A stretch of 64,000 nt of DNA. Source: Collinsella tanakaei. Its GTDB lineage: Bacteria; Actinomycetota; Coriobacteriia; Coriobacteriales; Coriobacteriaceae. The DNA is taken from the NCBI RefSeq assembly GCF_021531055.1, contig NZ_JADYTL010000004.1, positions 124,001 through 188,000 of the forward strand. The letters are read 5' to 3'. A program made the position numbers and the translations under genes. Position 1 is the first letter of the stretch; every line of letters begins with the position of its first letter. This document shows positions 11,927 through 30,416 of the stretch, piece after piece. The notes beneath the pieces were generated by a model. It saw only the letters and a program-made list of their open reading frames with translations, had not been told where the DNA came from and made no database searches.

Positions 11927-11986
11927 GACAAGTTTGCACCTGGCACCATCTTGTCGCGACAAGATGGTGCCAGGTGCAAACTTGTC
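11927..11986. repeat. 60-bp palindrome of a 29-bp repeat (inverted pair) between hypA and hypB
   Basis: A 29-bp unit (GACAAGTTTGCACC...ATCTTGTC, 11927-11955) is followed after two bases by its exact reverse complement (11958-11986). It starts three bases after the hypA stop and ends 28 bases before the hypB ATG. Related single copies occur at 59954-59982 and 63678-63706. In RNA it would form an almost perfect 29-bp hairpin inside the operon. Confidence 0.9.
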
Positions 11987-12014
11987 GGCAGCGTGTCGTG
12001 TAGTGGAGGATCAT

Positions 12015-12689
12015 ATGGTAGAAAAGACGATTGAGATCGGCAGCTCGATCCTGTCGCGCAACGAGCGCCTGGCCGCCGAGCTGCGCGAGCGGTTCGAGCG
12101 CACGGGGACCTATGTGATCAACGTGCTGTCGAGCCCCGGCTCGGGCAAGAGCTCGACGATCCTCGCCACCAACGAGCTGCTGCGCGAGCGCTACGGCCTG
12201 CGCTGCGCCGTCATCGAGGGCGACATCGCGAGCGACGTGGACGCCGTCAAGATGAAGCAGGCGGGCATGCCGGCCATCCAGATCAACACGGGCGGTCTGT
12301 GCCACCTGGAGGGCAACATGATCTCGCAGGCGATCGACGCGCTCGACGCCGATGTGGGGCTCGACGCGATCGACGTCATCTTCATCGAGAACGTGGGCAA
12401 TCTCGTGTGCCCTGTCGATTTCGACTTGGGCGAGAACCTCGCCGTCATGATCCTCTCGGTTCCCGAGGGCGACGACAAGCCCGTCAAGTACCCGGGCATC
12501 TTCCAGCACGCCGGCGCGCTGCTGCTCAACAAGATCGACGTGGCGTCGGCTTTCGACTTCGACATGGAGGGCTACGCGCGCGTGCTCGACGACCTGAACC
12601 CCACCGCACCCCGCTTCTCCATCAGCGCGACGCGCGGAACCGGCATGGACGAGTGGGTGACCTGGCTCGCCGCGCAGATGGGCGTGTAA
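12015..12689 (+). CDS. hypB: Hydrogenase nickel-incorporation GTPase HypB
   Basis: GTPase that works with HypA to load nickel into hydrogenase. The P-loop SSPGSGKSS is at residues 39-47, the metal-binding GGLCHLEGNM is at C96-H97, and NKID gives guanine specificity. There is no N-terminal His-rich nickel-storage stretch, so it is the non-storing form, 224 residues long. The ATG at 12015 follows GGAGGA. Confidence 0.95.
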   Translation: MVEKTIEIGSSILSRNERLAAELRERFERTGTYVINVLSSPGSGKSSTILATNELLRERYGLRCAVIEGDIASDVDAVKMKQAGMPAIQINTGGLCHLEGNMISQAIDALDADVGLDAIDVIFIENVGNLVCPVDFDLGENLAVMILSVPEGDDKPVKYPGIFQHAGALLLNKIDVASAFDFDMEGYARVLDDLNPTAPRFSISATRGTGMDEWVTWLAAQMGV

Positions 12690-24675: not shown

Positions 24676-24709
24676 GGCGGCCGTCCCATGCGGGATGGCC
24701 GCCTCTTTG
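24676..24709 (+). terminator. Terminator of hpf
   Basis: GGCGGCC (24676-24682) pairs with GGCCGCC (24697-24703), with an inner GTCCC/GGGAT stem, followed by TCTTTG. Confidence 0.75.
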
Positions 24710-24765
24710 TTGTGGACGCGATGCTCGCACGATACGAGAACGACCGTTTCGCGAAAGGGCGTACA

Positions 24766-25719
24766 TTGAACAGCACCACATCGGGCTCCGGCCATGCGCA
24801 GCGCTGCAGGATCGTCGTCGACACCTGCGCCGACCTGACCCCCGAGATCGCCGCGTCGCTCGACGTCGACATCCTGGGCTTCCCGTATATCTTGGACGGG
24901 GTCGAGCACACCGACGACATCTGGACGTCCATCACCCCGCAGGAGTTCTACGATCAGATCCGCGCGGGCGTGAAGGCGTCGACTTCGGCGATCTCGATCG
25001 GTCGCTACCTCGAGTACTTCACGCAGTGCGCCGAGGAGGGCACGCCGACGGTGTACCTGTGCTTCACCTCCGCGCTCTCGAGCAGCTACGACTCGGCGGT
25101 CACGGCTGCCGAGCAGGTGCGCGCCCAGTATCCCGATTTCGAGCTGTACGTGGTCGACAACGCCCTGCCGTGCGCGTGCGGCGAGCTGTTGGCGCTCGAG
25201 GCGGTGCGGCAGCGCGCCGCGGGGCTCAACGCCCAGCAGCTCGCGGCGTGGGCCGACGAGGCCAAGACCTACGTCCACGGCTATTTCACCCTCGACAGCC
25301 TGGATTCGCTGGCGGCGGGCGGGCGCATCCCGCCTGCGGCGGCCCAGCTCTCCTCCAAACTCGACATCAAGCCCGAGCTGTCGTTCGACCTGTCCGGTTC
25401 GCTGTCGCTGATCGGTGTGAACCGCGGCCGCAAGAAGGCGCTCAAGTCGCTCATCAAATCCTTCAAGGAGAACTACGTGCCCGATCCGGCACTGCCCATC
25501 ACGGTCGTGTCGGCCGACGCCGAGAAGGACGCCGATTGGGTGGAGGCCGCCCTGCGCCGCGAGGAGGGGTGCGCCAACGCGACCATCATCCGCGGCTCGG
25601 TGGGCCCCACGATCGGCGCCCACGTGGGTCCCGGCATGGTGGCGGTCATCTTCTGGGGCCGCAACCGCGCCGACAAGATCTCGCTGACCGACCGCATCGC
25701 GAAGCGAGTGCGCGGGTAG
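24766..25719 (+). CDS. DegV-family fatty-acid-binding protein
   Basis: DegV/FakB proteins bind a fatty acid for phosphorylation by FakA or for lipid metabolism. The N-terminal CRIVVDTCADLTPEIAASL, the TSAISIGRY loop with serines that bind the carboxylate, CFTSALSSSYDSA and the C-terminal GPTIGAHVGPGMVAVIFWG are all diagnostic. I placed the start at TTG 24766 because AAAGGG lies six bases upstream; ATG 24721 has no SD and 24688 lies inside the hpf terminator. 317 residues. The partner kinase is not in the window. Confidence 0.88.
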   Translation: MNSTTSGSGHAQRCRIVVDTCADLTPEIAASLDVDILGFPYILDGVEHTDDIWTSITPQEFYDQIRAGVKASTSAISIGRYLEYFTQCAEEGTPTVYLCFTSALSSSYDSAVTAAEQVRAQYPDFELYVVDNALPCACGELLALEAVRQRAAGLNAQQLAAWADEAKTYVHGYFTLDSLDSLAAGGRIPPAAAQLSSKLDIKPELSFDLSGSLSLIGVNRGRKKALKSLIKSFKENYVPDPALPITVVSADAEKDADWVEAALRREEGCANATIIRGSVGPTIGAHVGPGMVAVIFWGRNRADKISLTDRIAKRVRG

Positions 25720-25817: not shown

Positions 25818-26909
25818 ATGGCGGATAGCAAGCAGAAAGTCGCATTCATCGGCACCGGTATCATGGGCGCGCCCATCGCGGGCCACATCATGGACGCCGG
25901 CTGCGATGTGACGGTCTACAACCGCACCAAGTCCAAGACCGACGCCCTCGTCGCGCGCGGCGCGCATTGGGCGGCGAGCCCCCAGGAGGCGGCTGCCGAC
26001 GCCGACGTGGTGTTCACCATGGTCGGGTTCCCGACGGACGTCGAGGAGATCTACCTGTCCGGCGACGGCCTGCTGTCCACGGCCAAGTCCGGCGCCTACC
26101 TCATCGACCTCACCACGAGCTCGCCCGAGCTTGCCCGCGATATCTCCGAGGCGGCCGAGACCATGGACAAGCATGCGTTCGACTGCCCGGTCACCGGCGG
26201 CGAGGCCGGTGCCGTCAACGGCACGCTCACGCTGATCGTGGGCGCCACCGAGGCCGACATCGCCCCGGTCCGTCCGATCCTCGAGTCCTTCTCGTCCAAG
26301 ATCTTCTGCTTCGGCGGCGCGGGCAAGGGTCAGGCCGCCAAGCTCGCCAACCAGGTGGCGCTTGCCGCCTCCATGGTGGGCATGGCCGACGCGCTGTCGT
26401 TTGCCCAGCAGTCCGACCTGGACCTCGCGCTCACCCGCGAGATGATCCTCGGCGGCACCGGCGCCTCGGGCGCCATGGAGCAGCTCGCGCCCAAGTCGCT
26501 CGACGGCGACTGGAAGCCCGGCTTCATGGTCAAGCACTTCCTCAAGGACATCGGCCTGGCGCTGCAGGTCGCCGAGGACAAGGAGATCGCCCTGCCCGGC
26601 GCCGACACCGCCTTCACGCTCTACGACATGCTCGAGGCCATCGGCGGCGGTAACCTGGGTACCCAGGCCATCACGCTGCTGTACCAGGAGGAGGCCGAGG
26701 CGGTCGCCGCCGGGCTCGACTGGTCGCTGTACACCTCCGCGCACGAGCACGACGAGGAGTGCGGCTGCGGTCACGATCACGGCCACGACCACGAGTGCGG
26801 CTGCGGCCACGACCACGAGCACGGCGATCACGAATGCTGCGGCGGCCATGGTCACGAGCATGACCATGATCACGAGTGCGGCTGCGGACACCACGGGCAC
26901 GCGGAGTAG
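25818..26909 (+). CDS. Beta-hydroxyacid dehydrogenase family protein with a His/Cys-rich metal-binding tail
   Basis: NAD(P)-dependent dehydrogenase of the 3-hydroxyisobutyrate/tartronate-semialdehyde group. Nucleotide loop GTGIMG (12-17), substrate loop DCPVTGGEAGA (122-132) and catalytic K175 with N178 in AAKLANQV are intact, so it should be active. The core ends near residue 308 and is followed by 55 residues made almost only of H, D, E, C and G: 18 histidines and 8 cysteines, including several CGCGH units. Such tails are known from nickel and zinc chaperones, not from this enzyme family. AAAAGGAG precedes the ATG. First gene of a tight five-gene run. Natural substrate unknown. Confidence 0.88.
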   Translation: MADSKQKVAFIGTGIMGAPIAGHIMDAGCDVTVYNRTKSKTDALVARGAHWAASPQEAAADADVVFTMVGFPTDVEEIYLSGDGLLSTAKSGAYLIDLTTSSPELARDISEAAETMDKHAFDCPVTGGEAGAVNGTLTLIVGATEADIAPVRPILESFSSKIFCFGGAGKGQAAKLANQVALAASMVGMADALSFAQQSDLDLALTREMILGGTGASGAMEQLAPKSLDGDWKPGFMVKHFLKDIGLALQVAEDKEIALPGADTAFTLYDMLEAIGGGNLGTQAITLLYQEEAEAVAAGLDWSLYTSAHEHDEECGCGHDHGHDHECGCGHDHEHGDHECCGGHGHEHDHDHECGCGHHGHAE

Positions 26910-26912
26910 TCG

Positions 26913-27344
26913 ATGGGAGCCGCCTTCTTCATCTGCGCCCTGCTGTTGTTGCTGTTCGGCCTGTACGTGGGGTTCTCCATCGGCAGCCATCTGGGCGAGC
27001 GGGCCTGCACCACGGCGGACTACTGGAAGCTCAACGCCGGAGCGATCGTCGTGACGGTGCTTTTGAGCTGCATCCTGGCGGGTCTGCCCCTGCTCTACGG
27101 CGCGATCATCGGGCTGCTGGCGGGTTGCATCGCGGGTCTCAAGATGGGGTTCGGCGAGTCGAGCGGTCCGTGGCGCGCGCTCGACCGGTTCTATAACATC
27201 AACAAGGCGCACCGCGATGCCGCCGAGAGCGGTTCGGGTGCCGCCCGCCGTCGCCGCAAGCGTACCGGTGCGTCCGCGCCCGACGTGATCTCGGTGGCCG
27301 ACGATGCCGCACACGGTGACGATAACGCGAGGAATGCGAGGTAA
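26913..27344 (+). CDS. Small membrane protein, 143 aa
   Basis: Not recognised. Two or three membrane segments: AAFFICALLLLLFGLYVGF (3-21), then about 44-60 and 61-77 (AIIGLLAGCIAGLKMGF). The cytoplasmic C-terminus is basic (ARRRRKRTG) and then acidic and disordered. It starts three bases after the dehydrogenase stop and ends six bases before the next gene, so it is part of the same operon. Confidence 0.75.
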   Translation: MGAAFFICALLLLLFGLYVGFSIGSHLGERACTTADYWKLNAGAIVVTVLLSCILAGLPLLYGAIIGLLAGCIAGLKMGFGESSGPWRALDRFYNINKAHRDAAESGSGAARRRRKRTGASAPDVISVADDAAHGDDNARNAR

Positions 27345-29183: not shown

Positions 29184-30416
29184 ATGCCGCTTCGCGCCGT
29201 CATAAGTTCGTGCCTGCTTGGGGCCCCTTGTCGCTACGACGGGGGCTCCAAGCCGTATGCGGCCTGTTCGCGCTTGGCACGCCGCCTTCGCGAGCACGGT
29301 GGTGTCGATGCGGTGGCGAAGATCTGCCCCGAGATGCTCGGCGGCCTGCCCTGTCCCCGTCCCGCGGCGGAGCGCTCGGGCGACCGGGTCGTGACACGCG
29401 CGAGCGACGATGTGACGCGCGCGTATACGGACGGAGCCGCCCGCTCGGTCGATATCGCGCGGCGCACGCGCGCCACGCTTGCTATCCTGAAATCACGAAG
29501 TCCGGCATGTGGCGTCGGTGCGATATACGACGGGAGATTTTCCGGTCGGCTCATCGCGGGCGACGGCGTGGCGGCGGCAGCTTTGAGACGAGGAGGATGC
29601 ATCGTGGTGGATGAGCAGCTGGTCGGGTTCTGTGAGCCGAGTTTCGAGCATCCGGTGGCCATCGTGCTGGGCAGCGGACTGGGTGTGCTCGCCGATCGCG
29701 TCCGCGTGGTTCGGCGCATCCCCTACGAGGATATCGACGGGTTCCCGCATGAGGCGATCCCGGTCGAGGGCCATCGCTTCGAGGTGATCGTGGGGACGAT
29801 CGACGACGTGCCGGTCGTGGTGTACCCGGGCCGCGTTCACCTGTACCAGGGCTATTCGGCGCTGCAGGTGACCTCGCTCGTGCGCCATGCGCATCGTCTG
29901 GGGTGTCATGACATCATATTGACCTGCGCCTCGGGTGCGGTGGGCGATATCGAGCCGGGGACCGTCGGCATCATCGACGACCAGATGAACCTGACGGGTG
30001 TGAACCCGCTGGCGAGCGCCGAGTGCGTCGCCGCGGCAGAGATCGACCAACCGTTCGTCGCCATGGCGGGCGCCTATTCCGCATATCTGTCCGCGTGCGC
30101 GCAAGCTGCGGCCGACGACGCCGACGTGGCGCTCGCGCGCGGAGTGTATGCGGGCCTGCTCGGGCCGACGTACGAGACGGTCGCCGAGGTACGTGCACTC
30201 GGCGTGCTCGGCGCCGATTTCGTCGGCATGTCGACGGTGTGCGAGGCGATCATGGCCCATGCCCTCGGTATGCAGGCACTCGGCCTCACGATCGTGACCA
30301 ACAAGGCCGGGCTTGCCGGCAACGCCCACGAGGAGGTGCTGTGCTGCGCGGATGCCGCCGCGCACGATGCGGGCAAGGTGATCTTGGGCGTGCTGCACAC
30401 GCTGGGAGGCCGCTAG
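29184..30416 (+). CDS. DUF523 - purine nucleoside phosphorylase fusion
   Basis: One uninterrupted frame joins two families. Residues 1 to about 140 are a whole DUF523 domain: SSCLLGAPCRYDG (C10, C16), CPEMLGGLPCPRPAAE, ILKSRSPACG, YDGRFSGRLIAGDGV. Residues 143-410 are a trimeric-type purine nucleoside phosphorylase: GSGLG (163-167), GRVHLYQGY (H219), GPTYET (E331), GMSTVCEA and VTNKAGL (N373), all catalytic positions intact. PNP splits inosine or guanosine to base and ribose-1-phosphate. An AGGAGG at 29591 and in-frame GTG at 29604 could also give free PNP of about 270 residues. No clear SD precedes the ATG at 29184. Confidence 0.9.
   Translation: MPLRAVISSCLLGAPCRYDGGSKPYAACSRLARRLREHGGVDAVAKICPEMLGGLPCPRPAAERSGDRVVTRASDDVTRAYTDGAARSVDIARRTRATLAILKSRSPACGVGAIYDGRFSGRLIAGDGVAAAALRRGGCIVVDEQLVGFCEPSFEHPVAIVLGSGLGVLADRVRVVRRIPYEDIDGFPHEAIPVEGHRFEVIVGTIDDVPVVVYPGRVHLYQGYSALQVTSLVRHAHRLGCHDIILTCASGAVGDIEPGTVGIIDDQMNLTGVNPLASAECVAAAEIDQPFVAMAGAYSAYLSACAQAAADDADVALARGVYAGLLGPTYETVAEVRALGVLGADFVGMSTVCEAIMAHALGMQALGLTIVTNKAGLAGNAHEEVLCCADAAAHDAGKVILGVLHTLGGR

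Follow-up and report, generated by a model that had tools for sequence, protein, structure and literature searches.

The gene at 25818-26909 (forward strand) of the window, i.e., the whole stretch of 64,000 nucleotides from Collinsella tanakaei analyzed here, encodes a 363-residue beta-hydroxyacid dehydrogenase whose last 56 residues contain 18 His and 8 Cys, the rest being almost entirely Asp, Glu, and Gly. This raises the question of what such a tail does on a dehydrogenase and, in particular, whether it stores nickel, as the initial annotation proposed alongside zinc storage and metal tuning of the enzyme.

Both its domains and its motifs place the core (25818..26738, forward strand, residues 1-307) in the beta-hydroxyacid dehydrogenase superfamily. 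The core consists of a Rossmann domain and an all-alpha NAD_binding_11 domain, with matches to NAD_binding_2 (E 1.2e-49) and NAD_binding_11 (E 1.1e-25) that both exceeded the Pfam gathering scores, and the GxGxxG, DxPVxGG, catalytic GxGxxxKxxN, and KD motifs were all present. Residues G12/G14/G17, D122-P124-V125-G127-G128, K175, N178, K243, and D244 were invariant across 57 aligned homologues, and the catalytic Lys175 is the alignment counterpart of the Lys mutated in 3w6z. The closest solved structures were those of the Pyrobaculum L-serine 3-dehydrogenase (3w6z/3w6u/3ws7), with Geobacter gamma-hydroxybutyrate dehydrogenases and tartronate semialdehyde reductase among the other top matches, and AlphaFold2 gave block means of at least 92 for residues 11 to 300. 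The product is an intact NAD(P)-dependent beta-hydroxyacid dehydrogenase, predicted to be functional. No substrate was assigned because none of the substrate-specific NCBIfam models passed its curated cut-off: the GarR/tartronate semialdehyde reductase model TIGR01505 scored 212 bits against an equivalog cut-off of 340.75, and the 3-hydroxyisobutyrate dehydrogenase model TIGR01692 scored 178 bits against 291.6.

The tail itself (26739..26909, forward strand, residues 308-363 plus the stop codon; AHEHDEECGCGHDHGHDHECGCGHDHEHGDHECCGGHGHEHDHDHECGCGHHGHAE) is built of about three to four degenerate repeats of 12-14 residues with the pattern [DH]HEC-x-CGH[DE]H, and its DNA is a degenerate tandem repeat with a period of 36-42 nt and 3.2-3.8 copies. 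AlphaFold2 pLDDT was below 50 across residues 310-363 with the exception of one residue, so the tail is predicted to be disordered. Its composition resembles the metal-binding tails of the SlyD/HypB kind, and the description of it as a metal-storage-type tail appears sound at the level of sequence. Outside the dehydrogenase locus, no copy of the exact tail motif was found in the organism's own genome. A DNA match on another contig (C14) was rejected as a second copy because it belongs to LarC, which inserts nickel into lactate racemase; this LarC (L003:1187-2632) carries a long (His-Glu)n insertion. A search of open-licence papers turned up no relevant account of a His-rich tail, either for this enzyme or for Collinsella.

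Relatives were surveyed in the organism's own family (f1), a sister, Atopobiaceae-like family (f2), and a third family (f3, which we take to be Eggerthellaceae), including 43 genomes of the genus Collinsella. The dehydrogenase gene was found at the same locus in all 65 f1 genomes, and a His/Cys tail, defined as at least eight His plus Cys after residue 291, was present in 60 of the 61 whose C-terminus was read, with at least 9 His and at least 4 Cys in 59 of these 61. The f1 tails had medians of 14.5 His and 9 Cys, and they varied in repeat number while remaining in frame and constant in chemistry; the two exceptions were G029, which had no tail, and G056, in whose tail only 3 His and 5 Cys are left. 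A tail confined to this strain, or one produced by an assembly error or a frameshift, is ruled out by its in-frame presence in 60 of 61 genomes, and the view of the tail as an addition to an intact enzyme rather than a product of decay holds, given the complete set of catalytic motifs and the conservation of the tail. In f2, related but variable tails were found, including that of an Olsenella phocaeensis record (L058), which was the same as the tail of G371. Several losses had occurred in this family with the enzyme intact and without an obvious replacement. Some f2 tails contained only His or only Cys as ligands, and it is therefore improbable that all tails prefer one and the same metal. 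Acidic or His-rich C-termini were observed in other families of the order, and the orthologues in deeper families of the class ended directly after the core without any tail. Mapped onto the tree of the core, the tail state requires about nine changes among 83 f1 and f2 rows.

Selection on the tail was assessed in a cluster of 18 distinct coding sequences with tails of equal length, which we call C. aerofaciens-like because of how many near-identical genomes it comprises, by comparing the last 57 codons with the rest. The pN/pS ratio was 0.053 for the tail and 0.047 for the core (sequence pairs not independent), and synonymous divergence was higher in the tail (0.30) than in the rest (0.19). 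Moreover, 13 of the 14 His columns and all nine Cys columns were invariant, such that only 1 of 23 His/Cys columns varied compared with 11 of 34 other columns. Judged from these coding sequences, purifying selection in this cluster constrains the tail as strongly as the catalytic core. A neutral expansion of repeats without function, as the tandem structure and variable copy number might suggest, is extremely improbable given the in-frame retention of the tail across f1, and chance or a neutral repeat was rejected on the basis of the pN/pS ratio and the invariant ligands. Dozens of species have also retained the reading frame, composition, and amino acids of the tail, which speaks against chance. 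Metal binding is the best explanation for a tail that is disordered, under selection, and dense in His and Cys.

As to which metal, the first candidate was nickel, with the tail handing Ni(II) to HypA/HypB or the Lar system and thereby replacing the His tail missing on HypB. As the initial annotation stated, the HypB of the window (11934-12689) has no His-rich stretch, which is in keeping with such a role. So are the presence of hypB and larC in most f1 genomes and the Ni binding of SlyD tails of a similar kind (PMC7055735). In the window, about 14 kb separate hypB from the dehydrogenase gene, and a similar spacing was seen in many f1 genomes (e.g., G003, G018, G026, and G034). Against nickel stands the distribution of the three marker genes that the test covered (HypB, LarC, and urease). 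Within f1, HypB was absent or below its curated cut-off in five genomes and LarC was absent in five, and none of the three markers was detected in the Collinsella genomes G017, G025, and G027 (97-99% complete), whose tails are rich in ligands (25/12, 19/8, and 17/9 His/Cys, respectively). Conversely, the tail-less Collinsella G029 possessed HypB, LarC, and urease. Among the 45 f2 genomes scored, a tail (at least eight His plus Cys) was carried by 15 of the 17 genomes lacking both HypB and LarC, and HypB and/or LarC occurred in 12 of the 14 tail-poor genomes (fewer than eight). The association was thus negative (Fisher p 0.046, with kinship ignored; 0.15 without genus g21, whose homologue is only 38-39% identical and may be a different gene), and phylogenetically independent pairs, which were few and of low power, gave no positive association between the tail and the nickel genes.

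Measured against nickel-storage tails of the SlyD/HypB type, the protein has the His/Cys-rich terminal extension but neither a nickel metallochaperone as host, the host domain being a dehydrogenase, nor a co-occurrence with nickel-enzyme maturation genes. The idea of a nickel store was therefore not borne out by the survey, in which rich tails occurred without detected HypB, LarC, or urease and most tail-poor genomes had HypB/LarC. A tight nickel link for the tail is not supported by these gene distributions, and with tail loss concentrated in HypB/LarC-bearing genomes, nickel storage or donation by the tail is quite unlikely. Separately, G029 was the only one of 22 genomes searched to have urease, and its urease region (L196) also holds a CadC/SmtB-like ArsR regulator (L196:3973-4368).

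A different metal class was suggested by a search for the EC-x-CGH-x-H pattern in 20 f3 genomes, ten tail-poor genomes, and the organism's own genome, which matched three genomes: the own genome (in the dehydrogenase gene), G196, and G179. In G196, repeats of the ECGCGHDH motif make up the N-terminal ~115 residues of a heavy-metal P-type (P1B) ATPase (L188:1261-3021, forward strand). A partial sequence of this ATPase scored highest against zinc/cadmium/mercury/lead-transporting ATPase and ZntA, without reaching the equivalog cut-offs. This ATPase gene is adjoined by a regulator of the ArsR/SmtB family, and the dehydrogenase of G196 itself lacks the tail. Since co-occurrence contradicts nickel and a relative carries the same motif on its ZntA-like pump, a zinc-class buffer is favored, and on the sequence comparisons zinc or another soft metal fits the tail better than nickel.

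The third match, in the f3 genome G179, bears on the relation between tail and catalysis. Its dehydrogenase homologue (L190:1450-2436, reverse strand) lies directly downstream of a DegV gene and shares 25% core identity; the GxGxxG, DxPVxGG, Asn178, and Lys-Asp features are broken, and an acidic DDDDDGECDCGHHHHHH Cys/His tail remains (ECDCGHHHHHH). AlphaFold2 predicted a confident core and a disordered end, and the protein is a candidate pseudoenzyme by its sequence. The ATPase parallel and this degenerate homologue come from one genome each. If the tail instead tuned the enzyme, its metal or redox state would switch the dehydrogenase through ligation or disulfides over the active site or through a change of oligomer, as could be suggested by the constant linkage of tail and enzyme and by the intact catalytic motifs in every aligned homologue of the two main families that bears a tail. 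Such tuning is nevertheless unlikely, considering the several tail losses with the enzyme intact, the degenerate active site of the G179 homologue in which a short tail persists, and the predicted disorder of the tail in the single-chain model. In f2, the enzyme has outlasted repeated losses of the tail, and in G179 a tail has outlasted the decay of the enzyme, which suggests that the function of the tail can be separated from catalysis.

The neighborhood of the gene offers a further reading. Across the order, the dehydrogenase is syntenic with an upstream DegV-type protein, identified by sequence reading (24688..25719, forward strand), the order being HPF, DegV, dehydrogenase, a small membrane protein, and a 231-residue protein. 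The DegV and dehydrogenase genes probably form one operon in many relatives, as judged from their arrangement, and the intergenic region between them is short and unconserved in many of these. No conserved metal-responsive operator was visible upstream of the dehydrogenase, where the sequence is not conserved among relatives, and constitutive buffering is thus likelier than induced storage. The gene for the small membrane protein (26913..27344, forward strand; no Pfam/NCBIfam match) starts 3 bases past the dehydrogenase stop codon, and in G137, a single-contig genome, the tail runs in frame into this protein without a stop codon, yielding a 489-residue frame (L157:601-2067) that is possibly a natural enzyme-membrane fusion. 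This adjacency and fusion would accord with the tail as a recruitment handle, whereby metal-bridged tails cross-link the enzyme or tether it to a partner, either the membrane protein encoded downstream or some other metal protein. However, the neighbor had no match in several tail-bearing genomes (L055, L057, L071, and L072) and was present in the tail-less G029, making such recruitment very doubtful; an obligatory partnership with the membrane protein is not supported, the two occurring apart. Further along the window, a frame at 29184-30416 seems, by eye, to combine a DUF523-like N-terminal part with a C-terminal part resembling purine nucleoside/MTA phosphorylase.

Taken together, our preferred reading, to which we give about an even chance, is that the dehydrogenase doubles as a clade-specific cytosolic buffer of zinc-class metal; from the comparisons above we infer metal binding, the identity of the metal, and its use in buffering alike. 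With 26 His/Cys ligands, the ECGCGHDH repeats of one chain could in principle coordinate as many as about six Zn(II)-class ions at four ligands each. For comparison, each H. pylori SlyD protein binds 3.3 Zn or 2.4 Ni through its tail (PMC7055735), and the di-Cys/His C-terminus of HMA4 binds at least 10 Zn (PMC10654040). Carried by a housekeeping enzyme at a fixed chromosomal place, the tail would give the cell a steady supply of exchangeable chelating sites, which might dampen free zinc (or cadmium/copper) rather than act as a nickel store for hydrogenase or lactate racemase. A broader and more speculative proposal, which we consider unlikely, is that an undescribed metal-buffering module has spread with this dehydrogenase through the Coriobacteriales and that in at least one lineage a dead enzyme with a surviving tail has become a metallothionein-like metal-storage pseudoenzyme. 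If zinc-class buffering by the dehydrogenase is correct, Collinsella and its sister families, which are common gut bacteria, would buffer the metal in an unusual way, through a chelating tail, constant and shared across the clade, that is attached to an ordinary enzyme. The comparative test, arguing as it does against nickel, also cautions that not every His-rich tail is a nickel store.

Among known systems, the Pyrobaculum L-serine 3-dehydrogenase, GarR/tartronate semialdehyde reductase, and 3-hydroxyisobutyrate dehydrogenase (HIBADH) have the fold, cofactor, and catalytic motifs in common with the core, whereas none of the beta-hydroxyacid dehydrogenases listed among the PDB matches is long enough for such a tail beyond the core. 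Metallothioneins are likewise flexible and rich in metal ligands; unlike these small, free-standing, Cys-rich proteins, however, the tail is fused to a folded enzyme of 363 residues and contains more His than Cys. The C-terminal tail of SlyD and the His stretches at the N-terminus of HypB and the C-terminus of UreE are also terminal His/Cys-rich extensions on cytosolic proteins, but the host here is a dehydrogenase instead of a nickel chaperone, the tail is made of repeated EC-x-CGH units, and its retention does not track nickel maturation genes. Cys pairs or CxC motifs with His runs are likewise found in the terminal domains of P1B-type ATPases, such as the C-terminus of plant HMA4, a high-capacity Zn chelator (PMC10654040), and the N-terminus of the ZntA-like ATPase of G196 (L188), whose motif is near-identical to that of the dehydrogenase tail, although there the motif is part of a pump and here it is part of a soluble enzyme.
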